NCBI RefSeq assembly: GCF_002863005.1 | Contig: NZ_PKDG01000044.1 | Location: 1 to 64,000, forward strand | DNA length: 64,000 bases | DNA from: Pseudoxanthomonas sp. | Lineage (GTDB): Bacteria; Pseudomonadota; Gammaproteobacteria; Xanthomonadales; Xanthomonadaceae | Reading direction: 5' to 3' | Shown here: in pieces, positions 6,334-22,656 of the stretch | Numbering within the stretch: position 1 is the stretch's first letter | Layout: every line of letters starts with the position of its first letter | Notes under the pieces: generated by a model | Databases searched by the model: none | What the model was told of the DNA's origin: nothing | What the model saw: the letters and a program-made list of their open reading frames with translations, nothing else | Made by a program: the position numbers and the translations under genes

Positions 6334-7575
6334 TCAGCCCTTCCAGCGTTTGAAGATCAGCGACGTGTTGATGCCGCCGAACGCGAAGTTGTTGTTCATC
6401 ACGTAATCGGTCTGCAGTTCGCGGCCCTCGCCCGTGATGTAGTCCAGCGCGGCGCAGCGCGGGTCGCGTTCCTCCAGGTTGAGCGTGGGGGCGAACCAGC
6501 CCTCCCGCATCATCTGCAGCGTGATCCACGATTCGTACGCGCCGCAGGCGCCCAGCGTGTGGCCGACATAGCTCTTCAGCGAACTGATGGGCATGCGGTT
6601 GCCGAACACGGCTGCCGTGGCCGCGGTTTCCGCGATGTCGCCGTGGTCGGTGGCGGTGCCGTGCGCATTGACATAGCCGATCGCTTCCGGCGACAGGCCT
6701 GCGTCTTCCAGCGCCAGGCGCATCGCCTGCGCCATCGTGTCCGCACTGGGCTGGGTGACGTGCTGGCCATCGCTGTTGGTGCCGTAGCCGACGATCTCCG
6801 CCAGGATCTCGGCGCCACGCGCCTGCGCATGCGTCAGGTCCTCCAGCACGAGGGTGCACGCGCCCTCGCCCAGGACCAGGCCATCGCGGTTGGCATCGAA
6901 GGGACGCGGCGTCAGCTCGGGCTGGTGGTTGCGCACGCTGGTGGCGAACAGCGTGTCGAACACCGCCGCGGCGGTCGCATCCAGCTGCTCGGCACCGCCG
7001 GCGATCATCGCGACCTGCTTGCCGCTGCGGACCGCCTCGTAAGCGCACCCGACGCCCTGGCTGCCGGATGTACATGCGCTGGACGTGGTGTACACGCGCC
7101 CGGTGAGACCGAAGAACACGCCGATATTCACCGGCGCGGTATGGCTCATCATCTTCAGGTACGTGGTCGCGTTGATGCCTTCGGTGGTGTACTCGTTGAG
7201 CATGCGGCCGAAGTCGCCGACGGCCTCGTGGCTGCCGGCGGACGAGCCATACGACACGCCCATCCGGCCGCTCGTCAGCACCGGATCACCCAGCAGTCCG
7301 GCCTGCTCGAGGGCGAGTTCGGTGGCGCGCACGGACATCAGCGCGACCCGCCCCATGCTGCGCGTGGTCTTGCGGTTGTAATGCGCGGGCAGGTCGAAGG
7401 GTTCGGCTGGCGCGGCCAACCGGGTGTTCAGGCCCTCGTACTTCGCCCAATCATCCATGTGGCGCACGGCGTTGCGGCATTCGCGCAAGCGAAGGTGCAC
7501 GCTGGGCCAGTCGTGTCCCAGGGGACTGATGGTGCCTGCGCCGGTGACCACCACGCGTCGATCATTCCGACTCAT
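6334..7575 (-). CDS. apeR: Beta-ketoacyl-ACP synthase (ApeR-like, FabF family)
   Basis: 413-aa condensing enzyme of the FabF/KS-II family. The active-site Cys168 lies in SSACTSGSQG. The two catalytic histidines are in HGTATDHGD (near residue 306) and GHTLGACG (near 341). In aryl-polyene loci a stand-alone FabF-like ketosynthase (ApeR) initiates or extends the aryl chain. The position as last gene of the operon matches ApeR. It overlaps the ketoreductase stop by 4 bp (ATGA). Family is certain; the Ape name is by position and homology. Confidence 0.9.
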   Translation of the reverse strand: MSRNDRRVVVTGAGTISPLGHDWPSVHLRLRECRNAVRHMDDWAKYEGLNTRLAAPAEPFDLPAHYNRKTTRSMGRVALMSVRATELALEQAGLLGDPVLTSGRMGVSYGSSAGSHEAVGDFGRMLNEYTTEGINATTYLKMMSHTAPVNIGVFFGLTGRVYTTSSACTSGSQGVGCAYEAVRSGKQVAMIAGGAEQLDATAAAVFDTLFATSVRNHQPELTPRPFDANRDGLVLGEGACTLVLEDLTHAQARGAEILAEIVGYGTNSDGQHVTQPSADTMAQAMRLALEDAGLSPEAIGYVNAHGTATDHGDIAETAATAAVFGNRMPISSLKSYVGHTLGACGAYESWITLQMMREGWFAPTLNLEERDPRCAALDYITGEGRELQTDYVMNNNFAFGGINTSLIFKRWKG

Positions 7576-8306
7576 CCGACCAGTCCTCCGTTGACCGAAA
7601 TCACCTGCCGGGTGACGTACGACGCCTCTGGCGACATCAGGAACGCCACGACGGCCGCCACTTCCCCGGGCGTGCCGACACGCTTCATCGGGATCATCTT
7701 CAGCGCCTCGTCGACCACCTCGCCACTGACCATCTCCGTGTCGATCAGGCCCGGGGCGACACAGTTCACGGTGATCGCGCGACTGGCCAGTTCCAGCGCC
7801 AGCGCCTTGGTGGCGCCGATGATGCCGGCCTTCGCCGCGCTGTAGTTCACCTGTCCCCGGTTGCCCACCAGGCCGGACACCGACGAGAGCGTGACGATGC
7901 GGCCCGGCTTGCGCCGCCGCACCATCGGCATGACCAGCGGGTTGAGCACGTTGTAGAACCCGTCGAGGTTCGTCCGCAGCACCGCGTCCCAGTCATCGGC
8001 GCTCATCGCCGGGAACGCGGTGTCGCGGGCGATGCCGGCGTTGCAGACCACGCCGTGGTACGCCCCGTGCGCGGTGACGTCGGCCTCCAGTGCCTGCGCG
8101 GCCGCGGTGCGGTCGGCCACATCGAAGGCCAGGACGCGCGACGCACGTCCCAGCGCACGGACCTGGCCGGCGACGCCCTCCGCTTCTTCCACACGGCTGC
8201 GGCAATGCACGACGATATCGAAACCGTCCTGCGCAAGCCGCAACGCGATGGCCTTGCCGATCCCCCGGCTCCCCCCGGTGACCAGGATCGTGTTGTCTGC
8301 ACTCAT
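7572..8306 (-). CDS. apeQ: 3-oxoacyl-ACP reductase (ApeQ-like, FabG family SDR)
   Basis: 244-aa short-chain dehydrogenase that would reduce the beta-keto group of the growing polyene. It has the Rossmann motif TGGSRGIGKA near residue 9, the NAG-type CNAGIA segment, and the catalytic YSAAKAG (Y-x3-K) motif. The ATG at 8306 was chosen because it begins at MSADNTILVTGG; upstream in-frame codons read through the preceding gene. ATGA overlaps occur at both ends. It acts between ketosynthase and dehydratase in the aryl-polyene cycle. Confidence 0.93.
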   Translation of the reverse strand: MSADNTILVTGGSRGIGKAIALRLAQDGFDIVVHCRSRVEEAEGVAGQVRALGRASRVLAFDVADRTAAAQALEADVTAHGAYHGVVCNAGIARDTAFPAMSADDWDAVLRTNLDGFYNVLNPLVMPMVRRRKPGRIVTLSSVSGLVGNRGQVNYSAAKAGIIGATKALALELASRAITVNCVAPGLIDTEMVSGEVVDEALKMIPMKRVGTPGEVAAVVAFLMSPEASYVTRQVISVNGGLVG

Positions 8307-8761
8307 TCCTGCGTACTCTCCAGATAAGCCATCGCGTCCGGTGGTTCGAACACCGACACGTTGGCGGTCGCCAGTTCCTCGCCGTCCCCCAGGATGCGGC
8401 AGCGGAACATGCCCAGCCCATTGTCGCCCAGCAACTCGCGGGTCGCCTCCACCTGCAGCACGCTGCCGGCGCGGAACCACGAGGTCCGGCTCTCGTAACG
8501 GCGCGTGCCCAGCAGGAACCCGATCGACGGTTCACGCCCCGAGGCCCGCGCGTGGCAGCCGGCCCAGGCGGCGATGGTCTGGGCCATGTATTCGATGCCC
8601 ACCCAGGCGGGCACGCCCTCCGCATGGCTGAACGGCCCCTCGTCGGGCACCCGCAGTTCGACCACCACGGTGTCCTCGTCCCAGTCCACCAATCGATCGA
8701 CCATGCGCATCGTGCCGCGATGCGGCACCACGCGCGCGATGTCGTACAGCTCGCGCATCAT
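8303..8761 (-). CDS. apeP: Hotdog-fold beta-hydroxyacyl-ACP dehydratase (ApeP-like)
   Basis: 152-aa FabA/FabZ-like dehydratase. The catalytic-type arrangement is visible as FSHAEGVPAWVGIEYMAQ, with His and Glu spaced as in hotdog dehydratases. It would remove water to create each conjugated double bond. The start lies in ATGATG overlapping the preceding ketosynthase stop (8758-8761), so 8758 is an equally possible start. A second, predicted dehydratase domain sits at the C-terminus of the ligase gene at 18357. Confidence 0.87.
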   Translation of the reverse strand: MMRELYDIARVVPHRGTMRMVDRLVDWDEDTVVVELRVPDEGPFSHAEGVPAWVGIEYMAQTIAAWAGCHARASGREPSIGFLLGTRRYESRTSWFRAGSVLQVEATRELLGDNGLGMFRCRILGDGEELATANVSVFEPPDAMAYLESTQE

Positions 8762-9948
8762 CCTGCTCCGAATACCAGTACGGCGTTGCTGCCACCGAAC
8801 GCGAACGACTGGCTCAGCACATGGCGCAGCGGCCCGTTGGCGGTGGCGCCGGGTGCCACGAACGCCAGCGGCGGAAGGTCGCCGTCGACGACGCCATCCC
8901 ACCAGTGCGGTGGCAGCCGATGGCGGGGATTGTCGGTCATCGCCAGCCAGCACAGGCCGGCTTCGATCGCGCCCGCGGCACCGAGCGTATGCCCGGTCAA
9001 CGGCTTGGTGGAACTCGCCGGCACCTCACCGCCGAGCGCCGCCGTCACCGCTCGGCTTTCCATCGCGTCGTTCTGCGGCGTCGCGGTTCCGTGCAGGTTG
9101 ACGTAATCGATCTGCGACGGCGACAGCTGCGCGCGCGCCAGCGCCTGGCCGATGGCGGTGACGGCACCGATGCCCTGCGGCTCGGGCGCCGAGATGTGGT
9201 GTGCGTCGGCGGTCTCGCCCCACCCCGCGAGGCGGACGGGGCCTTCCGCACGCGTCATCAGGAACAGTGCCGCCCCTTCGCCGATGTTGATGCCGTGGCG
9301 GTTCGCCGAGAATGGGTTGCAGCGCTCGGCCGACACGGACTCCAGCGCCATGAAGCCGCGCACGGTGAACTCGCACAGCGAATCCGATCCCCCTGTGATC
9401 ACCGCATCGACCAGTCCGCTGCGCAGCAGGCGGGCCGCCGATGCCATGGCCTTCGCGCTGGAAGAGCACGCCGTGGAGATCGTCCAGGCGGGACCGCGGG
9501 CGCCCGATTCGGCGGCGAGGAAGCGCGACGGCGCGCCGATTTCCTGCTGCACGTAATGGAAGCCGTCGGGCCATTGCCGGTGATGCTGCCAGTGCGTCAT
9601 CGCCCGTTCGGCCTCGCCGATGCCGGAGGTACTGGTGCCGACCACGATGGCGACCCGCGCGGGGCCGTGCCGGTCGATGGCCTGCTGCACGGCGTCCCCG
9701 ATCTGGAGGTAGGCCGCACGCAGCAAGGCATTGTTGCGACCGTGCAACGGGAGCGGATGATGCGCGAGCGACGGCAGGCCGCCCTCGACCGTCCCCAGTG
9801 CGAGGCTTCGCCCGGGCATGAACGTGTCGTCGAGCATCACACCACCCGGCGCGTCATCGCGGAACAGCGCCTCGCGCACGGCCTCCGTCCCCTCGCCGAG
9901 CGCACAGACGATGCCGAGCTCGTTCAGGAAGATCGCACCGCCCCTCAT
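8758..9948 (-). CDS. apeO: Beta-ketoacyl-ACP synthase (ApeO-like)
   Basis: 396-aa ketosynthase with active-site Cys161 (STACSSSAKA), HGTATPQND and GHTLGAAGA motifs, so it retains a complete Cys-His-His triad. In characterised aryl-polyene systems ApeO forms the elongating complex with the chain-length-factor-like ApeC; the ApeC counterpart here is the first gene of the operon at 21919-22656. ATGA overlaps join it to the lipoprotein gene upstream and the dehydratase downstream. Confidence 0.9.
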   Translation of the reverse strand: MRGGAIFLNELGIVCALGEGTEAVREALFRDDAPGGVMLDDTFMPGRSLALGTVEGGLPSLAHHPLPLHGRNNALLRAAYLQIGDAVQQAIDRHGPARVAIVVGTSTSGIGEAERAMTHWQHHRQWPDGFHYVQQEIGAPSRFLAAESGARGPAWTISTACSSSAKAMASAARLLRSGLVDAVITGGSDSLCEFTVRGFMALESVSAERCNPFSANRHGINIGEGAALFLMTRAEGPVRLAGWGETADAHHISAPEPQGIGAVTAIGQALARAQLSPSQIDYVNLHGTATPQNDAMESRAVTAALGGEVPASSTKPLTGHTLGAAGAIEAGLCWLAMTDNPRHRLPPHWWDGVVDGDLPPLAFVAPGATANGPLRHVLSQSFAFGGSNAVLVFGAG

Positions 9949-10493
9949 GGATCCAGCGCTCCGCCGGCCACGGATTCGATCGTCAGTTCGTAGTCGTCGA
10001 CGCCATTGCGTACGCGCAGCGTCGTGGCATCGACCTGCTCGCGCTGCAACCAGACCTGTCCGTTCCTGCGCAACTCACGGAACGCCCCTTGCTCGACCAG
10101 CGTCCAGTCCGCGGGAAGTACGGCCCGGATCGCATCCGCCGGCCACAGGCTGAACTGCACATCGTCGAGCACCCGCTCGCCGCGGACGGCAGCGGGCAGC
10201 CACGCCGCGCGTTGCTCTACGAGCGCCTTGCCATCCCACTGCAGCTGCACGCCGGTCCGGCCCATGGCCTGTACCGCGAGCCGGACATCGGTGGCGTCGA
10301 CTTCCAGCAGCGCATCCAGTTCGCGCACGTGCGGGCCGAAACGGAACACCAGGCGCTGTTGCACGGCCAGGTCGTGGCCCAGCGCCGCAGGCGCCAGTCG
10401 CAACGCGGGAAGTTCCACCGCGGGCTTTTGCGGACGCGTTGCGCATCCCGCCAGCAGCACGCCGGCGAGCAGCAGTGCGATCAACCGGTGCAC
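9945..10493 (-). CDS. apeN: DUF3261 lipoprotein (ApeN-like)
   Basis: 182-aa predicted outer-membrane lipoprotein. The hydrophobic leader LIALLLAGVLLAGC gives a good lipobox with Cys near residue 16. The remainder matches the DUF3261 family found in aryl-polyene loci beside LolA-like and MMPL-type proteins, where a role in moving the pigment to the outer membrane is proposed. The start is a GTG at 10493 that overlaps the halogenase-like gene by 13 bp; a TTG at 10484 is an alternative. Confidence 0.82.
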   Translation of the reverse strand: MHRLIALLLAGVLLAGCATRPQKPAVELPALRLAPAALGHDLAVQQRLVFRFGPHVRELDALLEVDATDVRLAVQAMGRTGVQLQWDGKALVEQRAAWLPAAVRGERVLDDVQFSLWPADAIRAVLPADWTLVEQGAFRELRRNGQVWLQREQVDATTLRVRNGVDDYELTIESVAGGALDP

Positions 10494-11713
10494 AGCTGCT
10501 CCAGCACCTGCAGGCGGCGCTGCGTGTCGGCCACGTAGGGATTCTTCTTGTCCCAGGCATAGCCGGCGAGGATCGAACAGATCATGCGTCGGATGTCCGG
10601 CTGCGGATCCGGGTGGAAGATGATCTTCTGGAAACCACCCGCGTACCACGACTCGACGAAACGGCGGAAGGTCTGCACGCCGCCACGCAGCGGAATGGCG
10701 AACTCGGTCTCCCAGTCCACCGGTTCGCCGGCGTAGTGGCGGCGCAGGCATTCGCTGGCGAGTTGCGCCGACTTGAACGCGATGGTCACACCCGAGGAAA
10801 ACACCGGATCGAGGAACTCGCCCGCATTGCCCAGCAGCGCATAACCCGGTCCCCACAGCGAGGCTACGTTGGCGGAGTAGCCGGTGATCTGGCGTACCGG
10901 CAGCACCGCCCATTCGGCGTTCTTCAGCAACCGCGTCAGGTTGGGGTCTTCGCCGACGATGGCCTGCAGGCGCTCCAGGTCGGTGCCCGCGTAGCGATCG
11001 AGGAACGCGGTTTCCGCCACCACGCCGAGCGAGCAGCAGCCATTCGAGAACGGGATGGTCCAGTACCAGACGTCGACGTGTTCCGGATGCGTGGTGATCA
11101 GGATCTTGTTGCGATCGAAGCCCGCGCCGGGGGGGATATGGTCGCGCACGTGGGTGAAGATGGCGCCGCGTACCGGGAAGTTCGACGGCGACTCGAGCTT
11201 CAGCAGGCGCGGCAGCAGTCGGCCGAAGCCGCTGGCGTCGAGCATGAAGTCGGCTTCGATCACGTACTCCTCGCCGTCCGGCGAGCGCACGGTGACGCGC
11301 GGAGCATGACCGGGCTCGGCGGACAGCACCTCGTGGCGGTAGCGCACCTCGGCCCCCATGCGCTCGGCGCCCTTCGCCAGGACATGGTCGAAGTCGGCAC
11401 GCTGCACCTGGTACGTGGTCCCCCAGCCCTCCGAGAACTTGTCGCGGAAATCGAACTCGGTGGTGCGCTCCCCGCGCACGAAAGCGGCGCCGTTCTTGTA
11501 CTGGAAGCCCGCCTCCACCACGTCCTGCAGGAGTCCGGCGGCCTGGATGTATTCCATGCTCTGCGGGAGGAGGCTCTCGCCGATGGAAAAGCGCGGGAAC
11601 TGTTCGCGCTCGATGATGAGGACCTTGCGACCTTGCTGCCGCAGCAGGGCGGCCGCCACCGAGCCGGCGGGGCCTGCGCCGATGATCAGGATGTCGGTGC
11701 GTTCCGTTTTCAT
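10481..11713 (-). CDS. FAD-dependent halogenase-like oxidoreductase in pigment operon
   Basis: 410-aa flavoprotein of the flavin-dependent halogenase / p-hydroxybenzoate hydroxylase superfamily. The FAD-binding GAGPAG is at residues 12-17 and the PRFSIGESLLP motif at about 40-50. WYWTIP at 216-221 matches the WxWxIP signature of flavin-dependent halogenases. Lys73 in FQYKNGA is a candidate for the catalytic lysine. Xanthomonadins are brominated aryl polyenes, so ring halogenation is the obvious hypothesis, but substrate and halide are inferred. It needs a flavin reductase, none of which is seen in the operon. ATGA overlap with the MMPL gene. Confidence 0.85.
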   Translation of the reverse strand: MKTERTDILIIGAGPAGSVAAALLRQQGRKVLIIEREQFPRFSIGESLLPQSMEYIQAAGLLQDVVEAGFQYKNGAAFVRGERTTEFDFRDKFSEGWGTTYQVQRADFDHVLAKGAERMGAEVRYRHEVLSAEPGHAPRVTVRSPDGEEYVIEADFMLDASGFGRLLPRLLKLESPSNFPVRGAIFTHVRDHIPPGAGFDRNKILITTHPEHVDVWYWTIPFSNGCCSLGVVAETAFLDRYAGTDLERLQAIVGEDPNLTRLLKNAEWAVLPVRQITGYSANVASLWGPGYALLGNAGEFLDPVFSSGVTIAFKSAQLASECLRRHYAGEPVDWETEFAIPLRGGVQTFRRFVESWYAGGFQKIIFHPDPQPDIRRMICSILAGYAWDKKNPYVADTQRRLQVLEQLCTG

Positions 11714-14091
11714 TCCACGTCGTGTCCAGGCAAGGGAGAAACATCCGGCGCAGGCCGGAACAGGGGCGACAGCAGCCAGACCAGGCCGATGCCGAACAGC
11801 AGGGTCAGGCCGAACGCGCGCAAGGCAGGCGTCGCCGACAGCCCCAGCAGGCCGAACGACAGCCAGGTACTGGCCGCCCCCACGCATACCGCGAGCCACG
11901 CGCTGGCATCGCCACGGTGCTCGACCAGGAAGATGCCGTAGTCGATCCCCATGCCGAGCAAGAGCATCAGCGCCAGCACGTTGAACAACTGCAACGGCTG
12001 GCCCAGCCAGCCCAGCAATGCCACGGTCAGCACGCCCGCCAGCACCGTCGGCGTGATCACACGCCAGGCCTGTCCGCGATAGCGTACGGCCAGCACCACG
12101 AACACCACTGCCACGCCCGCCAGCAGCAGCCAGGACATCATGTGGCGGTAGTGCGTGAGGAGGCGTGAAATGTCGGCCGTGCGATCGACCCAGCGCACAC
12201 CCTCGAGACCCACCGCCTGCGCCGCGAACGTTGCGAGGGCGTCCGGCCGCGACAGGTCGTTGACCATCACCACCGACGCCACACCCTCGCCCACCTGCCC
12301 GAGCCAGAGATGGCGCACCGGCAGCGATGCCGGCGATGCGAGGAAGGCCTCGATGTCCATCGCCGCCGGGGCGAATTCGCCGCGCGCCACCGACTCTCCG
12401 GTGACCGCGGACAAGCGCGCCAGTACGTCGCGCTCGATACGCGACGTCAGCGCAGCATCTTCGTCCTGTTGGCGCTTCGAGGGCAGCCAATCGCTCAGTG
12501 CGCGGTGACCACCGACCTTCCCGTTCGCCTCCGCTTCGCGAAGGCGCGCCACCAGGCGTTCCTCGCGTTGCAGCACCTGTTCGGCATCGCGCCCCTGCAC
12601 GAGGAAGAACTGCGCCGGGCTGGGCATGCCCAGCAGGCGACCGACATCGCGCTGCTGCGTGATCAGCGCCGGTGGCGACGACTGCAGGCCGCGAAGGTCG
12701 TCCTTGCCCTGTACGCGCATCAGGCCGGGCACCGCGATGGCCAGGACGACGACGGCGAGCGCGACACCGCCACGACGACCGGACAGGCGCGGCCATCGCG
12801 CCAGCGTACCGCCCAGCCAACGCGAGAAGCCGGTCGTGCGGACCTGCCCACCATCCAGCCACGGGAAGAAGAAGATCACCGTCAGGAAGGCCGACGCCAG
12901 GCCGACCACGGAGAACAGCGCCATCTGCCGCAGGCCGGGGAACGGTGCCAGCCCCAGCGCCAGATACGCCATGGCGCTGGTCAGCAGTGCCAGCCACAGG
13001 CCGGGCAGCAGATGGCGCAGCAGCGACCAGCGTCGCTCGCTGGCCACGCCCTGACGCGATGCGAACCAGTGGATGCCGTAGTCCTCCGCCACGCCAACGA
13101 GGCTTGCGCCGAAGATCAGCGTCAGCAGGTGCACCTTTCCGAAAACCAGCACAGTGACCGTCATCGCGACCGCGCAGCCGACCAGCAGCGACATCGCCAC
13201 CAGCAACAGGGGACGCAGCGAGCGGAACGCCAGCCACACCAGCAGCAGCACGGCCGCCAGCGAGCCCCAGCCGATGGTATTGACCTCGCGGCGGGCCTGC
13301 ACCGCGGCCGATTCGGCATGCAGGGGCACCCCGGCCTTCAGCACGCGGATGCCGGGCGCCGCCGCCATCGCGGCGCCGGTCGCCGCGTCGAGCAGATCCT
13401 GCAGATGGCGTTCGCCGTCCAGCCTGAAGGCCGAGGTGCGCAACGTGTACTGCAGCACCGCCCAGTGGCGGTTCTCGACCTGCAGCAGTCCGTCACCGTC
13501 CACTGCCATCCCCGACGCGGCCGCCTGCGCCTGCCACCACTGCGGCCACAGTCCGAGTGGATCGCTGCGCCACTCGGTCAGGCGCGGCGCCCCCATGGGA
13601 CCGTACAGCGACGCCAGTGCGGACTCGGCCAAGGCTTCGGGCGTCGCCTGCGCCAGCGTGTCCCGCTGGGACGCAGTCAGCAAGCGATCGCGATGCGGTG
13701 CCAGCACGTCGCGCGCCTGGGCGAACCAGTCTTCCGGCGACCCAGCCGACGCCAGCATCGCCTGCGCCGCCGGGCGTGCAAGCGACGCCTCGAACGCCGC
13801 CCGTGCCTTCAGCGCGTCCTCCACCTCCGTGGCGCCCAGCATGACCACCACGTCGCGCGCACTGTTCTCCGCGATGCGTCGGGTCGCATCGGACACCGTC
13901 GGGTCGCCGGCCTCCTGGGGCAGCAGCGCCAGCACGTCGCTGTCGATGCGCGGCGACTGCCAGAACCGCCATTGGTGCCACGCCACGGCGGCCAGTACCA
14001 CCAACCACGCCACGGCAAGCCAGCGCCAGCCGCGCAACGGTCGCACCCTCGTCACCGCGGGCACAGGATCACTCAAACCGGGCCGCCTCAT
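11710..14091 (-). CDS. apeM: MMPL/RND-type exporter (ApeM-like)
   Basis: 793-aa inner-membrane protein with the duplicated RND/MMPL layout: one N-terminal helix, a large periplasmic region (about residues 45-270), five to six helices, and the same pattern repeated in the C-terminal half, about 12 helices in total. The two helix blocks are near residues 270-420 and 650-780. In aryl-polyene loci this exporter class is thought to pass the lipid-linked pigment to the LolA-like carrier. It overlaps the LolA-like gene by 23 bp. Confidence 0.9.
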   Translation of the reverse strand: MRRPGLSDPVPAVTRVRPLRGWRWLAVAWLVVLAAVAWHQWRFWQSPRIDSDVLALLPQEAGDPTVSDATRRIAENSARDVVVMLGATEVEDALKARAAFEASLARPAAQAMLASAGSPEDWFAQARDVLAPHRDRLLTASQRDTLAQATPEALAESALASLYGPMGAPRLTEWRSDPLGLWPQWWQAQAAASGMAVDGDGLLQVENRHWAVLQYTLRTSAFRLDGERHLQDLLDAATGAAMAAAPGIRVLKAGVPLHAESAAVQARREVNTIGWGSLAAVLLLVWLAFRSLRPLLLVAMSLLVGCAVAMTVTVLVFGKVHLLTLIFGASLVGVAEDYGIHWFASRQGVASERRWSLLRHLLPGLWLALLTSAMAYLALGLAPFPGLRQMALFSVVGLASAFLTVIFFFPWLDGGQVRTTGFSRWLGGTLARWPRLSGRRGGVALAVVVLAIAVPGLMRVQGKDDLRGLQSSPPALITQQRDVGRLLGMPSPAQFFLVQGRDAEQVLQREERLVARLREAEANGKVGGHRALSDWLPSKRQQDEDAALTSRIERDVLARLSAVTGESVARGEFAPAAMDIEAFLASPASLPVRHLWLGQVGEGVASVVMVNDLSRPDALATFAAQAVGLEGVRWVDRTADISRLLTHYRHMMSWLLLAGVAVVFVVLAVRYRGQAWRVITPTVLAGVLTVALLGWLGQPLQLFNVLALMLLLGMGIDYGIFLVEHRGDASAWLAVCVGAASTWLSFGLLGLSATPALRAFGLTLLFGIGLVWLLSPLFRPAPDVSPLPGHDVE

Positions 14092-14695
14092 CGCGCGACA
14101 GGGTCGCGGGCGATTCGCTCATGCCGCTGAAGCGCAGGCGCGTGAGGTCGCCGTTGGCCTCGCGCAGCTCCACCTCACGAACATAGCGGTCGCCCGACAG
14201 GCGCACCGAGGTGAATGCCTGCGCCACCTGCCGCGAACGTGGCACCAGCGTCATCTTCCAGCCACGCGCCACAGGCTCCGCCTTCACCTCGAAGGTCGAC
14301 GTCAGCGCCTTCATGTCGCCGCTCATCAGCGCGAACATCATCGCGTTGACACTGCGAAGCCCGGGTTGTTGCCGGCCATCGACTTCCACCCGGCGGCTGC
14401 CGTCGCGCTGGCGGCTGAGGATGCGGTCCTGCGTGATGACGGTTTCGGACGGGAACGGCGCCGTCGTCGACCACACCACGCCCTTGTCGCGCACCAGCAG
14501 GAAACGGCCATTCGAGCGCAGCGGATTCCTGAAGCCGGCCACCTGCTTTTCCTGGCTGAACTCGCCCCGCAACAGTGGCACCTGTGCCACCTGGGAGCGC
14601 ACCTCCGCCAACGGATCGGCGGACGCCGGGTTGACGATTCCACCCGCCATGAGGGCAAGCGCGAAAGCGGAAACGAGACCGCGGATCTTGTTCAT
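14069..14695 (-). CDS. apeL: LolA-like outer-membrane lipid carrier (ApeL-like)
   Basis: 208-aa periplasmic protein with a signal peptide ending in NPASA near residue 26 and a LolA-type fold: FSQEKQVAGFRNPLRSNGRF and the VVWSTTAPF segment are typical. It should carry the hydrophobic polyene lipid across the periplasm. It sits between the thioesterase (ATGA overlap) and the MMPL exporter, the arrangement seen in ape loci. The cell's general LolA is expected elsewhere in the genome. Confidence 0.85.
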   Translation of the reverse strand: MNKIRGLVSAFALALMAGGIVNPASADPLAEVRSQVAQVPLLRGEFSQEKQVAGFRNPLRSNGRFLLVRDKGVVWSTTAPFPSETVITQDRILSRQRDGSRRVEVDGRQQPGLRSVNAMMFALMSGDMKALTSTFEVKAEPVARGWKMTLVPRSRQVAQAFTSVRLSGDRYVREVELREANGDLTRLRFSGMSESPATLSRDEAARFE

Positions 14696-15129
14696 GGCGC
14701 AGCGACTCCCAACCGTTCCCACAGGACAGGCGGGCACTGATAGCGCATCTCGCCTGAAGCGGCGTCGACCGCCACCTGGATCGTGTGCGCGCGCGTCAGC
14801 ACCTCGCCGCTGCCGGCGTCGCGAATCTCGTAGTCCATCCTCAAGCGGTTCTCCCACTCGCTGATGCGGGCCGTCACGAGCAGGGCCTGCGCGTACCGCA
14901 GCGGCCGGATGTACTTCACGCGCGTATCGACGATCGGCCACATGTAGCCGGATGCATGCATCTGCGGATAGTCGTAGTCGAACCGCTGCAGCAACGCGCA
15001 ACGGGCGATTTCAAGGTACTTGAAGTAATGGCCGTGCCAGACCACCTGCATGGCATCGCAATCGTGGAAGGCGGGTCTGAGCGGGATCTCGATCGCCAGG
15101 TCGGCGCGCAGGTCAGGCGGCATAGACAT
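14692..15129 (-). CDS. apeK: Acyl-ACP/CoA thioesterase, 4HBT family (ApeK-like)
   Basis: 145-aa hotdog thioesterase of the YbgC/4-hydroxybenzoyl-CoA type. It has the catalytic Asp in HDCDAMQVVWHGHYFKYLE near residue 23. It may release or proofread acyl chains on the ACPs. The ATG at 15129 is preferred because GGAGG lies 9 bases upstream; the ATG at 15123 is possible. The start overlaps the ammonia-lyase gene by 17 bp and the stop overlaps the LolA-like start. Confidence 0.86.
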   Translation of the reverse strand: MSMPPDLRADLAIEIPLRPAFHDCDAMQVVWHGHYFKYLEIARCALLQRFDYDYPQMHASGYMWPIVDTRVKYIRPLRYAQALLVTARISEWENRLRMDYEIRDAGSGEVLTRAHTIQVAVDAASGEMRYQCPPVLWERLGVAAP

Positions 15130-16654: not shown

Positions 16655-17591
16655 TGCGGGGCTCATTCGGTACCTGATCCCAGAAGGGGTAGAAGTTGAA
16701 CCAGTCGTAGGGCGACAGGTGGACCTGCTGTTCCAGCCACCGCGCGAACTGCGCAGCGTAGCCGGCCAGGGCGGCATCGCGCGAGCCGCGCGGCAACGCG
16801 ATGCGTTCGGCGAACGCGTCCATGCGCACCCGGTAGCCGTCGCCTTCATGCGTGCACGCCATGGTGAACACCGGGCACTTCAGCGCGGCACCCAGCACGT
16901 AGGCGCCGATCGGGAACGGGGCTTCATGGCCCAGGAAGGAGGCGGTCACCGTACGCCCGCCGCGCAGCGGGACGCGATCGCCGGCGATGGCGACGAACTC
17001 GCCCCGCGCCACGCGCTCGGACAACCTCACCGCATCGGCGGGCCCCAGGTCCGTGACCTGGAGCAGTTCCACGCGCGTGGTCTCGTCCAGGCGACGCATC
17101 ATGCGGTTGAAGCGCTCGGCGTGCGCCGTGTGCACCAGCGCCGTAAGGCGAAGGCCGGGAACCTGCTCGGCCATCACCTGGCAGAGCTCCAGACATCCCA
17201 GGTGCCCGGTGACGATCAGCCCGCCCTCCCCCGACCTGACCCGCGCCAGCACGCCCTCCCGCTGCATGCGGACGCGTCCGATCGGGTAGCGGTGGCCCAG
17301 CGCGAGGATCTTGTCGAGCATCGTCTCGGCGAACATCGCGAAGTGGTGCAGGCTCTGCCACACGCCCGGCCGCGACGGCGGCACGCCCGAATGGGCATGC
17401 AGGCGCCGCAGGTACTGTAGCGACGCACGCCGCGCGGTGCCATTGAGCAGCCAATGCACGAGGACCACCGGATAGACGCACAAGCGGAAGGGCCAGCGCC
17501 CCAGCCAGCGATGCACCGCGCAGAGCAGCAGGATCCCGCGTACGGACGTGGATTCGCCGATGTCGGCCCAGTGCTCGCTGCGCCGGCTCAT
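16647..17591 (-). CDS. LpxL/HtrB-family lipid acyltransferase in pigment operon
   Basis: 314-aa membrane-associated acyltransferase resembling lauroyl acyltransferases of lipid A synthesis. An N-terminal hydrophobic segment (about residues 21-50) is followed by the H-x4-E motif in TGHLGCLELC and by the AGDRVPLRGG segment. In the aryl-polyene pathway it would attach the polyene acyl chain to a glycolipid or lipid carrier. It follows the GT2 gene with an ATGA overlap. In some ape loci these two activities are fused (ApeJ); here they are separate. Confidence 0.85.
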   Translation of the reverse strand: MSRRSEHWADIGESTSVRGILLLCAVHRWLGRWPFRLCVYPVVLVHWLLNGTARRASLQYLRRLHAHSGVPPSRPGVWQSLHHFAMFAETMLDKILALGHRYPIGRVRMQREGVLARVRSGEGGLIVTGHLGCLELCQVMAEQVPGLRLTALVHTAHAERFNRMMRRLDETTRVELLQVTDLGPADAVRLSERVARGEFVAIAGDRVPLRGGRTVTASFLGHEAPFPIGAYVLGAALKCPVFTMACTHEGDGYRVRMDAFAERIALPRGSRDAALAGYAAQFARWLEQQVHLSPYDWFNFYPFWDQVPNEPRNE

Positions 17592-18367
17592 GGCGACGCC
17601 ACCGACCTGCGGCCGCGCAGCAGGCGCGGCAGCCGCCGCACCATGCCGAAGAACAGCCGCGCATGCATGCGGCTGATGCGCACGTTGTCGCGCCATACGT
17701 CGAAGTGCGACACGCCATCGAGCGGATAGGTCACGCGCGTCGGCAGGTTGTGCACGCGGATGCCGCGCCAGAACAGGCGCACCAGCACCTCCACGTCGAA
17801 GTCCATGCGCCGCCCGATGGTCTCCTCGTCCATCAGTTTCAGCACCGGAGGCAGCGGATAGACGCGGAAGCCGCACATCGAATCGCGGATCGCGAAGGAC
17901 ACGGTATTGATCCACACCCATACGTGGGTGAGGTAGCGGCCGTAGAGCCGGCCCTTCGGCACGCTCTCGTCGTAGACCGGCACGCCACAGATCACGTCGC
18001 CCGGATGCGCCTGCGCCAGCGCGAGGAAGCGCGGAATGTCGGCGGGGTCGTGCTGGCCATCGGCATCGATCTGCAGCACATGGGTGTGCCCATGGCGGCT
18101 CGCGTCGCGGAACCCCGCCAGCACGGCGCCTCCCTTGCCCTGGTTCACCGGCAGCCGGAGCAGGCGCACCTGCGGCGCATGCAGCGCGGCCAGACGGTCG
18201 AGCTCGAGGGCGCACGCCGGGCCCGAGCCGTCATCCACCAGCAGGCAGGCGTTGCCGGTGTGTAGCACGCCCGCCACCATCGTGGCGATGGCGTGCTCGT
18301 GGTCGAACACCGGGATCACGACCAGCGGGCGGAAGGCGAGCGGCGGCGCCACGGATTCACGCCTCAT
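17588..18367 (-). CDS. Family 2 glycosyltransferase in pigment operon
   Basis: 259-aa cytoplasmic-face GT2 enzyme. It has the N-terminal VVIPVFDHEHAI fold, VDDGSG, and the metal-binding DADGQHD motif of dolichyl-phosphate-sugar-synthase-like transferases. A C-terminal basic, hydrophobic segment could touch the membrane. It likely helps build the head group to which the polyene is esterified. The ATG at 18367 overlaps the ligase gene by 11 bp; an upstream ATG at 18394 would lie deeper inside that gene. Confidence 0.87.
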   Translation of the reverse strand: MRRESVAPPLAFRPLVVIPVFDHEHAIATMVAGVLHTGNACLLVDDGSGPACALELDRLAALHAPQVRLLRLPVNQGKGGAVLAGFRDASRHGHTHVLQIDADGQHDPADIPRFLALAQAHPGDVICGVPVYDESVPKGRLYGRYLTHVWVWINTVSFAIRDSMCGFRVYPLPPVLKLMDEETIGRRMDFDVEVLVRLFWRGIRVHNLPTRVTYPLDGVSHFDVWRDNVRISRMHARLFFGMVRRLPRLLRGRRSVASP

Positions 18368-20042
18368 GGGCAAACACCACGCGACCACTGGCATGCGGAC
18401 CCTGCACGGAGGTGTAGCGGAACACGAGCGTGGCGCGATCCGCCTGCCATTCCAGGTCCAGGTGGATCAGATCGCCGGGACGCGCCACGCGCTGGAACTT
18501 CAGCGCTTCCATGCGAAGGAAGCACGGGGGAATCGCGAAGACCTCGCGCGCCAGCTGTACCGCCCAGTCGAGTTGCGCGACCCCCGGCAGGACTGCGGCC
18601 TGGTTGAAATGGCCGTCGAAGACGGCGAGCGACGCGTCCAGCGACATGTCGGCGCGTGCGCGCGCCGACTCGCGGAGCGTCCAGCATGCGGCCGGGCGCT
18701 CGGGGCGGAACAGGGCGGTCAGTGCCGCCTCGGTGACCTTGCCTTGCGCGTTGGTCGGCAACGCCGTCGCGAAGCGCCAGCGCCGCGGCCGGGTCACCGC
18801 ATCCTGCATCTCCGCCAGGTGCCGCGACAACGACTGCGACAGCGCACGCCGGGCCATCGCATCTTGCGGCACCGGCACGCCGTCGGCCATCGCGACGACG
18901 GCCGCCAGCGCGCTGCGCGCGCCACCGAGCAGCAGCACGCGCGCCTCCCTGACCGCCGGGTGCGCCTGGATCCGGCGCTCCAGCGCATCCAGCGAGACGC
19001 GACGCTCTTCCACCTTCACGATACGGTCTGCCCGGCCCAGCAGACGGAATCCGCCCGCACCATCGGCTTCCGCGCGGTCCTGGCTGCGCCACCACGCGTC
19101 GCCGGCCAGGTGCGGCGAATGCACTTCGAGCACGCCTTCCTGCAAACGCCAGTCGACGCCGGGTAACGGCGTCCAGACCGGAACTTCCGTCTCCCAGCGG
19201 CGCCAGGCGATGCCGCCGGTCTCGCTGCTGCCCAGGATCTCGGTGGGCGGCACGCCCAGCAGCCGGGCCACATCGTGCGCAGCATCGGCGGGCAACGCGC
19301 CACCCGACGAGAACACCGCGCGCAGCCGCCCATGCAGCGATGCCCATGACAGCTGCGCCGGCAAGCGCTTGAGGTGCGCCGGACTGGCGACCAGCACCGC
19401 GTCCTGGCCGTCCATCGCGGCCAGCAGATCTTCGGGAAAGAACGCACGCGGCACGATGGCGCGGCCCGCAGCCAGCGGCCACAACACCCGGAACAGCAGG
19501 CCGTAGATATGCTGGTGCGACACGGTGCCATGCACCGCCACGCCGTCCAGGCCGCGCCCGAGCGCGGCTTCCAGCGCGTGCACCTCGGCGTCGAGTTGCC
19601 GCAGGCGCTTCTCGATGGCGACAGGCTCGCCCGTGCTTCCGGAGGTGAAGACGACGAGACGCGTGGCGTCCGCGTCCAGCGGTCGCGCCACGCAGGGGGC
19701 GTACGGCAGATCATCCGGCGACGCGGCATCGCTCTCGAGCCAGTCGCCCACGAAACCGTCCACGTGCGCGCGCAGGCGGGCCTGGGTGCCCGCCAGCGCG
19801 TCGCCCGGCAACACCACGGTCTTGCCCGCATGCCACGCGCCATACAGGGCGGCGGCGAAGCGCGAGGCGTCATCGAAATGCAGCGCCCAACTCGACCCCG
19901 GCAGACGGTGGAACGTCGCCTGCCAGCGCAGCGCCTCGTGCTGGAACACCGCATGGTCCGCCGACTCGCTTCCCGCCGCCATGAACGCCCGTCCCGGCAA
20001 CGGGCGCAGCGCGACCTCGTCCAACGAGCGCCACTCAGTCAT
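18357..20042 (-). CDS. Aryl-ACP ligase fused to a hotdog dehydratase (ApeH-ApeI fusion)
   Basis: 561-aa two-domain protein. Residues about 1-450 are an AMP-forming acyl ligase with the P-loop TSGSTGEP at 133-140 and SSETGGIAWR near 260; the conserved GK-containing C-terminal loop is NAQGKVTEA. Residues about 460-561 form an ApeI/FabA-like hotdog domain with His478 in HFNQAAVLPG and an acidic residue near 492. In E. coli-type loci ApeH and ApeI are separate adjacent genes. The ligase would load the aryl starter onto an ACP and the tail would dehydrate extension intermediates. Confidence 0.88.
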   Translation of the reverse strand: MTEWRSLDEVALRPLPGRAFMAAGSESADHAVFQHEALRWQATFHRLPGSSWALHFDDASRFAAALYGAWHAGKTVVLPGDALAGTQARLRAHVDGFVGDWLESDAASPDDLPYAPCVARPLDADATRLVVFTSGSTGEPVAIEKRLRQLDAEVHALEAALGRGLDGVAVHGTVSHQHIYGLLFRVLWPLAAGRAIVPRAFFPEDLLAAMDGQDAVLVASPAHLKRLPAQLSWASLHGRLRAVFSSGGALPADAAHDVARLLGVPPTEILGSSETGGIAWRRWETEVPVWTPLPGVDWRLQEGVLEVHSPHLAGDAWWRSQDRAEADGAGGFRLLGRADRIVKVEERRVSLDALERRIQAHPAVREARVLLLGGARSALAAVVAMADGVPVPQDAMARRALSQSLSRHLAEMQDAVTRPRRWRFATALPTNAQGKVTEAALTALFRPERPAACWTLRESARARADMSLDASLAVFDGHFNQAAVLPGVAQLDWAVQLAREVFAIPPCFLRMEALKFQRVARPGDLIHLDLEWQADRATLVFRYTSVQGPHASGRVVFAHEA

Positions 20043-20592
20043 GGCGATGTCCTGCCTTCACCCGCTGGCGCACCAGCCACTCGCCGCCGAACAACAGGCC
20101 GATCAGTCCGTAGGCGATCAATCCGTTGTAGAGCGCCCACGTCCGGTCGGACGTCCACAGCGCCGTGACCAGCGCGAGCGCGCCATTGAGCACGAAGAAG
20201 CCGCACCACACCTGGGTGACGCGGCGCGTGTAAGCAACGCCGGCGGGCGGGAGGTCGGGCTCGGTCAGCCGCGCGATGCGCTCCACCGCCGATGGCGGAA
20301 ACGCCAGGCTGCTCGCGAACACGACCAGCATCACCGCATTGATCAGGGCCGGATAGAGCTTGAGCGGCAACGCCTGGTTGAACACGGTGGCCAGGGCCGC
20401 AAGCAGTGCGGCGCCCGCGGCCGCCACCAGCCAGACCGCCTGGCGCGTCGCGATGGCGCGCAGCACCGCGAGGGCTAGCAGCAGGACCGCCAGCCAGCGC
20501 GGCTCGAAGCGACCCATCGCCCAATAGACCACTAGGGGGTAAGCCACCGACAACGCCACGAAGATGGCCGCGCCTATCCGGGACACGGGCAC
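20039..20592 (-). CDS. apeG: COG4648-type integral membrane protein (ApeG-like)
   Basis: 184-aa membrane protein with five to six predicted helices across its length (for example residues 8-26, 35-47, 52-70, 80-96, 126-144, 154-168). It matches the membrane protein kept beside ACP and ligase genes in aryl-polyene loci; the molecular role is unknown. Translation appears to start at a GTG at 20592, 11 bp after the second ACP stop; no strong RBS is seen. Overlaps the ligase start by 4 bp. Confidence 0.78.
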
Positions 20593-20603
20593 GCGGCCTG
20601 CGC

Positions 20604-20858
20604 TCAGGCGGCTTGGTCGCGGATCAGGCCGTACAGCACGTCCACGATGTCCTGCACCGTGCGCACCGACTTGAAGGCATCCGGCTGCAGGCTGCGGCCA
20701 AGCAGCGGCTTCAGCTGCACGATCAGGTCCACTGCATCGATGCTGTCGATGTCGAGGTCATCGTAGAGCCGGGCGTCGGGCGTGATGCGCGCGGGCTCGA
20801 TCTCGAAGCTGTCATGCAGGATCGTCACGATCCGGTCGAAAAGTTCGTTCTTGGTCAT
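20604..20858 (-). CDS. apeF: Acyl carrier protein 2 of the pigment operon (ApeF-like)
   Basis: 84-aa acyl carrier protein. The phosphopantetheine attachment site is Ser39 in DLDIDSIDAVD. It is acidic and helical as expected. The operon carries two distinct ACPs; in characterised ape systems one is used for the aryl starter and elongation. It lies 23 bp after ACP 1 and 11 bp before the membrane protein, the only positive gaps in the operon. Confidence 0.92.
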   Translation of the reverse strand: MTKNELFDRIVTILHDSFEIEPARITPDARLYDDLDIDSIDAVDLIVQLKPLLGRSLQPDAFKSVRTVQDIVDVLYGLIRDQAA

Positions 20859-20881
20859 CTTGCCAGTCCTGCCGTCCCTGC

Positions 20882-21142
20882 TCAGGCCTTGCCTTGCGAG
20901 GCGACGAAGTCCGCCAGGGCACGCACGCTGGCGAAATGCCGGCGGGTTTCCTGCGAATCGGCGGAGAGCGCCACGCCGTAGCGCTTCTGCAGCGCAAGGC
21001 CCAGTTCGAGCGCGTCGATCGAATCCAGTCCCAGCCCCTCCACGAACAGCGGGGCGCCGGTATCGATGTCGTCGGGGGTGATGTCCTCCAGCGACAGCGA
21101 TGAAATGATCAATTCCTTGATCTCGTGCTCAAGTGCCTGCAC
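20882..21142 (-). CDS. apeE: Acyl carrier protein 1 of the pigment operon (ApeE-like)
   Basis: 86-aa acyl carrier protein with phosphopantetheine Ser41 in GLGLDSIDALE. The start chosen is the GTG at 21142, preceded by GGGAG at a good distance and overlapping the acyltransferase by 14 bp; a TTG at 21160 would add six residues but lies beyond that RBS. It pairs with the second ACP immediately downstream. Confidence 0.9.
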   Translation of the reverse strand: MQALEHEIKELIISSLSLEDITPDDIDTGAPLFVEGLGLDSIDALELGLALQKRYGVALSADSQETRRHFASVRALADFVASQGKA

Positions 21143-21926
21143 GCGATGGATCTCCCGCAAAGTAGTTGGCCAGATGTTCCGTGAGCCGCCGGGCTGCCAG
21201 CGCCTCTCCCCCCGCCGCTGGATCCGCCCCCTCCATTCCGTTCAGGAACGGGGCGATCGGCAGGTCTTCCTGAACATCGATCACCATGTGGAATCGCACC
21301 GGCGGCACACGATACCACTTCTCCCCTTTCCCCAGCGTCAGCGGCGAGCACGTGATCCGCACCGGCGTGATGTCCAGCGCGCCGCGCACCGCGATGTTCG
21401 CGGCCCCGCGCTGCAGCTTCAACGGCTGCCCCGGCGTGGTCCGGGTTCCTTCCGGGAAGATCACCAGCGCGCCACCGGCGCGGACCGCGGCAATGCAGTC
21501 TTCCACCAGCCCTGCGCCGTCGTCGTTGGCGACGTAGCCTGCGGCACGCACGGGGCCGCGCATGAACGGATTGCGCGCCACCGCCGACTTCACCACGCAA
21601 TCCGCATTGGGAAGCAGCGACACCAGCAGGACGACGTCGATCAGCGTCGGGTGGTTGGCAAGGACCAGCAGGCCCCTGCGCGCCAGCCGCTCGCGGCCCC
21701 GGATCTCGTACGTCATCAGCCCAAGGCGGCGCATCAGTTCGACATGGGCGGCGAAACTGCGCTGGACGATGCGCCGGGACCAGCGGCGGCGGCGCTCGGA
21801 GTCACGCACCAGCCAAAGCATCGGCGGCAGCACGAACACGCCCAGGAACAACCCGCCGACGCCGAACGCAAGGAAGCTCAGTCCGGTACCTAACACGCGC
21901 CAGGCACGGTCGACGCGTTCACGCAT
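21129..21926 (-). CDS. apeD: PlsC-family acyltransferase (ApeD-like)
   Basis: 265-aa membrane-anchored lysophospholipid-type acyltransferase. It has an N-terminal hydrophobic helix (about residues 13-40), the catalytic NHPTLID (H-x4-D) motif near 91, and FPEGTR near 159. It probably forms part of the lipid carrier to which the polyene is attached. It overlaps the first gene of the operon by 8 bp and ACP 1 by 14 bp. Confidence 0.88.
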   Translation of the reverse strand: MRERVDRAWRVLGTGLSFLAFGVGGLFLGVFVLPPMLWLVRDSERRRRWSRRIVQRSFAAHVELMRRLGLMTYEIRGRERLARRGLLVLANHPTLIDVVLLVSLLPNADCVVKSAVARNPFMRGPVRAAGYVANDDGAGLVEDCIAAVRAGGALVIFPEGTRTTPGQPLKLQRGAANIAVRGALDITPVRITCSPLTLGKGEKWYRVPPVRFHMVIDVQEDLPIAPFLNGMEGADPAAGGEALAARRLTEHLANYFAGDPSRAGT

Positions 21927-22656
21927 CGCGCTGCCACCGCCATGTCATGCCGTCGGCCCCCCATTGCCATGCCGCCTCGCCCGACAGCAGGAAGCGCAGG
22001 ACCTCCAGACCGTGCGGCAAGGTGGCGGCCGCGAGCTCCGATTCGCCCGCCTCGCCCTCCCACGACAGCCGCAATGCAGGCGCCGAGCCGTCGGCAGGCG
22101 CGATACGCCAGCACCAGGCGAAACCGGCGTCCGGCTCGTCCGCGAAGCTGGCGTAGATCCCGGGCAGCGGCGCTTCGTACACCACCAGCAGCACCTCCTG
22201 CGCCCCATCCGCCAGCAATACCGCCGCCTCGACGCACGCGGCTTCTACCGTCGCCATGCCACCGGCCAGGGCGATGTAGTTGCCGCGCTCCCGTCGCAGG
22301 ATCGAGTACAGCGCCGCGATGGCGTTGTGCACCGACAGGCCGAACGTGGTGGGCGACGGTGGTTGCTCAGTCGCCAGGGCTTCCAGCAGTTCCATCGAAC
22401 GCGCCACGTCGCCGTGCCGCGACGCGAAGATGAGGGGCGTGCCGTTTTCTTCAGCGCGCTGGCACCAGAACGCCGTCTGGATCGCCATCCGCCCGAGCCG
22501 CTCGATGCGCCTTCGCTGCATCGCGGGCACCTCCGCCAGCGCAGGGGTTTCTTCGCCAACCGGCAGCCACGGGGCGGTGGCCCACGCACGCCATGCGTCG
22601 CGGTCCACCAGACCGGGCGCCCATGCGGACCATTCCTTCACTGAAAACGCGATCAT
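21919..22656 (-). CDS. apeC: Ketoacyl-synthase-like partner protein (ApeC-like, PF13723 type)
   Basis: 245-aa protein of the N-terminal ketoacyl-synthase-2 type, with AWAPGL near the start and HNAIAALYSI typical of the family. It lacks a KS Cys/His triad and is about half the length of a ketosynthase, fitting ApeC, the chain-length-factor-like partner of ApeO. The ATG at 22656 is preferred; a GTG at 22707 has its only purine-rich stretch directly abutting it. First gene of the 18-gene operon, so the operon promoter should lie in 22657-22793, but no clear box pair could be assigned there. Confidence 0.8.
   Translation of the reverse strand: MIAFSVKEWSAWAPGLVDRDAWRAWATAPWLPVGEETPALAEVPAMQRRRIERLGRMAIQTAFWCQRAEENGTPLIFASRHGDVARSMELLEALATEQPPSPTTFGLSVHNAIAALYSILRRERGNYIALAGGMATVEAACVEAAVLLADGAQEVLLVVYEAPLPGIYASFADEPDAGFAWCWRIAPADGSAPALRLSWEGEAGESELAAATLPHGLEVLRFLLSGEAAWQWGADGMTWRWQRDA

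Follow-up and report, generated by a model that had tools for sequence, protein, structure and literature searches.

An intact aryl-polyene operon of Pseudoxanthomonas with a probable tyrosine ammonia-lyase belongs to a subtype widespread in Gammaproteobacteria, Betaproteobacteria and Myxococcota

Few bacterial pigments are as widespread as the aryl polyenes. Here, we describe an aryl-polyene operon of Pseudoxanthomonas sp. (assembly GCF_002863005.1; 3.96 Mb in 63 contigs) that lies in the first 64,000 bases of contig NZ_PKDG01000044.1 (C14, 92,617 bases), the stretch referred to below as the window. In the literature consulted, the characterised clusters start from a hydroxybenzoate or, in Chitinophaga, from tyrosine. 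The apeA-R genes of E. coli CFT073 and the ape locus of Xenorhabdus doucetiae resemble the window's operon in their C to R order, in their core and transport proteins, and in running on one strand with overlapping frames (PMC8253772). The xanthomonadin (xan) and Lysobacter enzymogenes clusters likewise specify an aryl polyene in related genera, with a halogenase in Xanthomonas, but they hold XanB2 and depend on 3-hydroxybenzoate (3-HBA) (PMC3691225), whereas the chorismatase-like gene of the window's genome lies on another contig (C8). The arcuflavin (arc) genes of Azoarcus BH72 also form an aryl-polyene set with a halogenase and include a XanB2-type enzyme; they differ in occupying two separate loci, in starting from a chorismatase, in carrying both a halogenase and a methyltransferase, and in a pigment reported to be non-brominated (PMC3949708). 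In the flexirubin (flx) cluster of Chitinophaga pinensis, FlxA and FlxY start the pathway from tyrosine, and methylation of the ring is known from labelling (PMC3992019). On the FlxA model the window's lyase reaches 317 bits, below the cut-off of 700. FlxY makes a coenzyme A (CoA) ester (PMC3992019), whereas the window's ligase is presumed to load an acyl carrier protein (ACP).

Judged from its sequence, the locus is an intact and complete aryl-polyene operon, with 19 genes when the conserved gene 19 is counted (Table 1). A preliminary description had proposed 18 minus-strand genes running from 22656 to 6334, with 15 of 17 junctions overlapping and gaps of 23 and 11 bases at the other two. A listing of starts and stops bears out this layout, and the operon is indeed intact; 18 is not its full membership, as gene 19 belongs to it too. 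When all starts for each stop codon were enumerated, the 18 frames proved open, and no broken gene was seen among them. The overlaps, in bases, are C-D 8, D-E 14, G-HI 8, HI-GT 11 (or 38), GT-AT 4, AT-lyase 8 (or 20), lyase-K 11 (or 17), K-L 4, L-M 23 (or 8), and 4 at each of M-halogenase, halogenase-N, N-O, O-P, P-Q and Q-R, where GT and AT denote the glycosyltransferase and acyltransferase genes; the positive gaps are E-F (23) and F-G (11). The gene names assigned earlier agree with Pfam and NCBIfam families, G alone lacking a Pfam family, and the reported match to characterised ape loci is confirmed by BLASTP, which finds all 16 CFT073 genes from apeC to apeR represented at 28–67% identity. 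The core type II polyketide synthase (PKS) set is complete, comprising ketosynthase (KS) O with C, KS R, ketoreductase (KR) Q, dehydratases I and P, ACPs E and F, and ligase H. The transport and anchoring set is present as D, G, J (as GT and AT), K, L, M and N. Key residues are intact in KS O, KS R, both ACPs, the lyase and the halogenase. Standard database pipelines would probably call the locus an arylpolyene cluster.

Compared with E. coli ape, the window's operon lacks ApeB, has H and I fused and ApeJ split into GT and AT, and additionally carries a lyase, a halogenase and gene 19. The absence of an ApeB-type methyltransferase noted previously extends to the window's whole genome, in which no match was found at E 1e-60; complete loci of the subtype described below often lack ApeB as well. 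No match to ApeA was found, in a comparison made only with gene 19; E. coli keeps its pigment after deletion of ApeA (PMC8253772).

To place the operon among its relatives, genome contigs were scanned with the lyase, which confirmed at least 580 relatives, and the best 80 loci were kept for comparison. Assigned from their titles, these span Xanthomonadales, Burkholderiales, other Gammaproteobacteria and Myxococcota. Among named relatives, the lyase of Pseudoxanthomonas mexicana is closest to that of the window (94% identity). Modules were located by tblastn, and a locus was called complete when every module was found, the halogenase being optional; 63 of the 80 qualify. The 17 excluded loci miss at least one module, either because the fetched stretch holds no aryl-polyene operon (L031, L047, L074, L081) or through contig-end cuts or undetectable genes (L043, L086, L088, L090, L091). 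Among these 17, a halogenase is found in L043, L058, L082, L086, L090 and L091, and a methyltransferase in L062, L087, L088 and L091. One of them, from Cupriavidus sp. IDO (L086), has the lyase and K to R with no C to AT in the 10 kb upstream, and its operon may be split.

The collinear order on a single strand is seen in all 63 complete loci. Of the 72 loci in which both H and I were detected, 71 encode them in a single reading frame; GT and AT form separate genes in 73 of 74. Thus the locus belongs to a subtype that is widespread in Gammaproteobacteria, Betaproteobacteria and Myxococcota. The fusion, lyase and halogenase, which the preliminary description had taken as differences of this particular locus, are present as claimed, but their recurrence in relatives makes them features of a common subtype rather than oddities of the window. 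A recent insertion of the lyase and halogenase into an E. coli-type operon was considered and rejected, as they hold the same positions in 63 and 47 of the 63 complete loci, respectively. Distance matrices of the two proteins track those of the core genes (r 0.77–0.92), a correlation that plain vertical descent would also give and that does not prove linkage. A plasmid-borne ape locus of Pseudoalteromonas THAF3 (L096) shares the annotated gene order, the lyase, a flavin adenine dinucleotide oxidoreductase between the M position and the DUF3261 gene, and a gene-19 homologue; it differs in having H and I separate and an extra MipA/OmpV gene ahead of gene 19.

Because the loci were fetched by their lyase, the 63 alone cannot show that the lyase is constant. 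A search for apeR in 198 genomes of the family provides a separate check, valid within the family only. At thresholds of E 1e-100 for the lyase and E 1e-120 for apeR, the lyase was found in 33 genomes and apeR in 32, and all 32 apeR genomes have the lyase; the sole lyase genome lacking apeR (G114) is 85% complete. No apeR match at this threshold occurs in the remaining 166.

The residues of the operon lyase and the gene context of its relatives indicate that it is probably a tyrosine ammonia-lyase (TAL). The window's enzyme has a methylidene-imidazolone (MIO) triad, Ala148-Ser149-Gly150, in which Ser and Gly are conserved in 80 of 80 relatives and Ala in 79 (one has Asp). It further has Tyr88-His89 and the motif His419-Asn420-Gln421-Asp422. 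Gln421, which stands at the second selectivity position in place of Glu, is invariant in the 80 loci and would correspond to the "motif 2" residue in the Fig. S1 legend of PMC3992019. The best NCBIfam model for the lyase is the BagA/FevW TAL (409 bits, below its cut-off of 1000). A second ammonia-lyase of the same genome (G000:C2:230455-232014, L093) resembles histidine ammonia-lyase (HAL), reads NAED at this motif, and adjoins an open reading frame (ORF) that by eye resembles histidyl-tRNA synthetase.

The strongest evidence comes from gene context. The chromophore of photoactive yellow protein is p-coumarate. On a Methylibium metagenome contig (L047, 499–3927), a lyase 74% identical to that of the window stands side by side with genes for photoactive yellow protein and 4-coumarate ligase, both of which exceed the cut-offs of curated models (TIGR02373, 182.6 over 143.05; TIGR02372, 362.7 over 334.7). 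This lyase is nested among operon lyases, as sister to two from Paucibacter operons with a support of 97 in the Shimodaira–Hasegawa-like approximate likelihood ratio test (SH-aLRT), and is 83% identical to one of them. In Xanthomonas bonasiae (L031, 7451–20859), genes for an H-like ligase (55%), a lyase (77%) and an ACP (43%) stand immediately in front of one for a type I PKS with the domains KS-AT-KR-dehydratase-ACP. Both contexts fit a p-coumarate starter, each being one locus of 80. The X. bonasiae cluster also has thioesterase and ATP-binding cassette transporter genes, and may itself start from p-coumarate. Two further operon-type lyases stand alone (L074:8827-10425 and L081:9779-11500), with no aryl-polyene genes in the fetched stretch, and their context is uninformative. 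HAL activity is disfavoured by Gln421, by the photoactive yellow protein cassette and by the separate HAL-like lyase in the genome.

Several observations weigh against a TAL that supplies the starter. Position 88, matched to the R. sphaeroides His89 site by alignment with tyrosine aminomutase chains rather than with the R. sphaeroides TAL itself, is Tyr in 73 of the 80 relatives and Phe in 7, with His89 in all 80; the R. sphaeroides histidine is thus replaced, and Tyr88-His89 differs from the classical TAL pair. In favour of a TAL, Tyr also occupies this position in the S. clavuligerus enzyme (PMC8773403), and in FlxA, whose TAL activity in an aryl-polyene cluster is proven, the first motif is HAL-like while the second has the residue of TAL and phenylalanine ammonia-lyase (PMC3992019). 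The ligase half of the HI fusion has TIGR02372, 4-coumarate–CoA ligase, as its best NCBIfam model (113 bits, below the cut-off of 334.7), but this is also the best model for E. coli ApeH (75 bits), so it is non-discriminating and was dropped as evidence on the starter; the X. bonasiae ligase scores 85 bits. ApeR, which is needed for initiation in the Xenorhabdus system (PMC8253772), is retained and shows high conservation, even though the first condensation would be bypassed with a coumaroyl starter. As p-coumarate equals 4-hydroxybenzoate (4-HBA) after one cycle of extension, the possibilities are that ApeR joins the first malonate to coumaroyl-ACP or that 4-HBA is still the starter. Finally, the genome holds a chorismatase-like gene of the FkbO/Hyg5 type (G000:C8:43429-44241, L092; 215 bits against a cut-off of 325).

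The last two of these points, together with the use of 3-HBA or 4-HBA in related pathways (PMC3691225, PMC8253772, PMC3949708), would suit a polyene begun, as in E. coli and Xanthomonas, from 4-HBA (or 3-HBA) that the chorismatase-like enzyme makes, the lyase feeding some other product or regulating supply. We regard this as very unlikely. All 32 apeR genomes of the family have the lyase, which lies within the operon in all 63 complete loci, partly by construction of that set, and a ligase-lyase-ACP series also precedes an unrelated PKS. A chorismatase would moreover be needed for ubiquinone where UbiC is absent, a role that XanB2 fills in Xanthomonas (PMC3949708). By analogy, and because no UbiC was found in the window's genome, its chorismatase-like gene may supply 4-HBA for ubiquinone. 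The preliminary description had reported neither chorismate lyase nor chorismatase in the window, which is correct; the likely reason is that the operon has its own probable TAL and that the chorismatase-like gene lies elsewhere.

The flavoprotein encoded between M and N carries Lys73 and the motif W216-Y-W218-T-I220-P221, the catalytic lysine and WxWxIP motif of flavin-dependent halogenases, and these are invariant in 52 of 52 relatives. A ring hydroxylase or some other flavin oxidoreductase, rather than a halogenase, is conceivable in that the top Protein Data Bank (PDB) match, 3nix, is named just flavoprotein/dehydrogenase, and the sub-cut-off NCBIfam matches include geranylgeranyl reductase-like and monooxygenase models. 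We consider such an enzyme unlikely, given the invariant motif, the halogenases that follow 3nix among the PDB matches (including 3e1t, 5bul, 5buk, 7fco and 3i3l) and the best NCBIfam model, which is the halogenase CmlS, albeit below cut-off. Xanthomonadins, moreover, are brominated, and their clusters contain a halogenase (PMC3691225).

Where the halogenase is missing, an ApeB-type methyltransferase is often found. Among the 63 complete loci, 47 have the halogenase, 13 the methyltransferase, 3 neither and none both, whereas about 10 with both would be expected were the two independent. Of the 13 methyltransferases, 6 lie in the M-N position, including that of L037 from the window's own family, and 7 between I and GT. 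On a tree of the lyase, O and R, at least 7 changes are required among the decorated loci, and 10 when the undecorated state is counted as a third. In a class sample of 369 genomes, which includes the window's genome and one close relative of the same family and is not a fully separate set, the lyase occurs in 16; of these, 8 have a halogenase within 20 kb of it, 4 a methyltransferase, none both and 4 neither. Beyond that distance, G358 has both genes on different contigs, G444 a halogenase about 58 kb away, and G259 a methyltransferase on another contig.

These counts are tempered in four respects. Of eight independent pairs on well-supported branches, 5 are opposite and 3 show no difference, so that the 5 of 5 informative pairs give p 0.0625; the exclusion in the class sample alone has p 0.077; an Enterovibrio locus (L091, 991–3355), in which H and I are separate, has adjacent genes for a halogenase and an ApeB-type methyltransferase that are divergent from apeC; and the Azoarcus arc set carries both enzymes (PMC3949708). 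The result from the pairs, the Enterovibrio locus and the restriction of the 80 loci to the closest relatives are all compatible with a pattern produced by shared ancestry and sampling rather than by an interchangeable step. To us this is rather improbable, since none of the 7 or more changes on the tree yields co-occurrence, 6 methyltransferases occupy the exact position of the halogenase, and the class sample is free of co-occurrence inside 20 kb of the lyase. Because the Enterovibrio locus and the arc set hold both genes, the mutual exclusion of halogenase and methyltransferase is a strong tendency of the subtype, not a law.

Gene 19 starts 51 bases past apeR on the same strand. A homologue is present in 46 of the 63 complete loci: 44 lie downstream of apeR on its strand, 32 of them within 160 bases, and 2 are divergent upstream of apeC. 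In 15 of the 17 loci where none was found, the fetched stretch extends less than 1.4 kb past apeR, so that an adjacent copy would show and one set further off by an intervening gene, the situation in L015 and L020, would be missed; the other two (L028 and L080) have no homologue despite more than 2 kb. A profile of 27 operon-linked proteins, a choice that biases the search to linked copies, was run against the 198 family genomes at E 1e-10 and found gene 19 in 26 of the 33 lyase-bearing genomes and in none of the 165 others (Fisher p 2e-26, relatedness ignored). Of the 26 copies, 24 lie no more than 90 bases from apeR and 2 about 1.1 kb away, and no unlinked copy was detected in these genomes at that threshold.

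The window's gene 19 matches no Pfam family above cut-off. The similarity of its family to YbjQ_1 is weak (E of 1 or less for 20 of the 27 members, the best at 1.2e-4), and two cysteines, Cys84 and Cys127, are invariant. The AlphaFold2 model is good, with a mean predicted local distance difference test score of 89.7; a search of the profile against the PDB gave nothing below E 0.5, and PADLOC returned nothing for the gene. The homologue in Pseudoalteromonas THAF3 (L096, 22879–23307; 142 aa, 46% identical) is annotated excinuclease ABC subunit A, which is probably a misnomer. The protein is probably exported, and its signal peptide and position suggest an accessory role in the operon, possibly in transport or anchoring.

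The best explanation of the locus as a whole, and one that we hold to be likely, is that the 19 co-directional genes make and export an aryl-polyene membrane pigment by the following steps. The lyase would deaminate L-tyrosine to p-coumarate, as gene context strongly supports, and the ligase half of the HI protein would load p-coumarate onto ACP E or F. By homology to ape, malonyl units would then be added to give a polyene, through KS O acting with chain length factor C, the initiating ketosynthase R, KR Q and dehydratases P and I. Halogenation of the ring would fall to the flavoprotein between M and N, where other loci have the ApeB methyltransferase instead. K would release the polyene, D, GT and AT would attach a lipid anchor, and G, L, M and N would carry the pigment to the outer membrane, the roles in release, anchoring and transport being themselves proposals in E. 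coli; gene 19 would be an accessory protein. The assignments for chain building, release, anchoring and export follow the characterised ape loci, where some are proposals too (PMC8253772). The gene neighbourhoods thus suggest that the product would be a tyrosine-derived, non-methylated aryl polyene with a chlorinated or brominated ring. For relatives that bear the methyltransferase, such as Paucibacter L038 and Massilia L064, the predicted pigment is methylated and not halogenated. Such a pigment would protect the cell against light and oxidants, as does the related Lysobacter pigment (PMC3691225).

Table 1. Predicted genes of the aryl-polyene operon in transcriptional order; identities are to E. 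coli CFT073 Ape proteins
Feature	Position in window	Strand	Support
apeC-like, ketosynthase N-terminal half / chain length factor, 245 aa, first gene	21919..22656	-	PF13723 E 1.8e-65; 29% to ApeC
apeD-like lysophospholipid acyltransferase, 265 aa	21129..21926	-	PF01553; 47% to ApeD
apeE-like acyl carrier protein, GTG start, Asp40-Ser41-Ile42	20882..21142	-	NF006617 above cut-off; 67% to ApeE
apeF-like acyl carrier protein, Asp38-Ser39-Ile40	20604..20858	-	NF003757 above cut-off; 46% to ApeF
apeG-like membrane protein, GTG start	20035..20592	-	56% over 102 aa to ApeG; no Pfam family
apeH-apeI fusion: aryl-ACP ligase (~1-445) and ApeI-like dehydratase (~446-561)	18357..20042	-	PF00501, PF22818; H 30%, I 36%
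Glycosyltransferase family 2, GT part of ApeJ; alternative start 18367	17588..18394	-	PF00535; 54% to ApeJ
LpxL-like (lipid A type) acyltransferase, AT part of ApeJ	16647..17591	-	PF03279; 36% to ApeJ
Aromatic ammonia-lyase, probable tyrosine ammonia-lyase	15113..16654	-	PF00221 E 1.2e-159
apeK-like thioesterase (4HBT)	14692..15129	-	PF13279; 51% to ApeK
apeL-like LolA-type carrier	14069..14695	-	PF19574; 28% to ApeL; flexirubin LolA2 model 68.9 bits, below cut-off 125
apeM-like MMPL/RND exporter	11710..14091	-	PF03176; 31% to ApeM
Flavin-dependent halogenase-like protein, between M and N	10481..11713	-	PF04820; PDB 3nix E 3e-112, 3e1t E 1e-42
apeN-like DUF3261 protein (LolB-like in E. coli), TTG start	9945..10484	-	PF11659 E 1.8e-27; 29% to ApeN
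apeO-like ketosynthase, Cys161, His286, His320	8758..9948	-	NF006618 above cut-off; 45% to ApeO
apeP-like dehydratase	8303..8761	-	PF22817 E 3.1e-21; 31% to ApeP
apeQ-like ketoreductase, FabG family	7572..8306	-	TIGR01831 above cut-off; 61% to ApeQ
apeR-like ketosynthase, Cys168, His305, His339	6334..7575	-	NF006587 above cut-off; 61% to ApeR
Gene 19, 146 aa, weakly YbjQ-like, probable signal peptide (by eye)	5842..6282	-	homologues near apeR in relatives

The surroundings of the operon bear on its limits. In six Pseudoxanthomonas loci (L012, from P. mexicana DSM 17121, L013–L016 and L020), a tRNA pair, a DUF1249 gene, a kinase gene and PpsA flank apeC, the same arrangement as in the window. 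G063 and G139, two genomes from the same genus group, gave no match to the lyase, apeR or gene 19 at the search thresholds. In G139, the copper ATPase flank and the flank of tRNA-Glu/tRNA-Ala, DUF1249 and kinase are separated by about 1.4 kb, which holds two short ORFs and not the 17 kb operon. The arrangement is close to an empty site, although the copper genes are only 43–76% identical to the window's and the junction is therefore inexact; in G063, the recognised flank is the tRNA side only. The near-empty site agrees with the operon and gene 19 forming one unit. In the window, a copper set (multicopper oxidase, CopB, DUF411 and P-type ATPase; 3–5794) directly flanks the operon and is convergent with it. 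The tRNA-Ala/tRNA-Glu pair (22794–22996) and DUF1249 are on opposite strands in the window and in the six operon-bearing Pseudoxanthomonas loci, and share a strand in two operon-less relatives (L103 and L104) and also in the operon-bearing Arenimonas locus L042. Outside the operon, a weak ketosynthase match at 53026–54261 is a thiolase adjoining a 3-hydroxyacyl-CoA dehydrogenase.

No description of the subtype, the tailoring position or gene 19 was found in the titles and abstract openings of the literature searched, whose coverage was partial, so that a prior description is possible; in PMC9966250, mentions of a lyase concern sugars. We give roughly even weight to the broader proposal that there is a tyrosine-started branch of aryl polyenes, with an interchangeable halogenase/methyltransferase position that would place a halogen or a methyl group on the ring and with its own exported, YbjQ-like gene 19, and that the same type of lyase also serves a photoactive yellow protein cassette and a type I PKS. 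If this proposal is true, the structure of the ring would be readable from gene content, as halogenase or methyltransferase, across Proteobacteria and Myxococcota. Gene 19 would then be a new conserved candidate part of the pigment pathway, and its recognition would correct one database name, that of the supposed excinuclease ABC subunit A.

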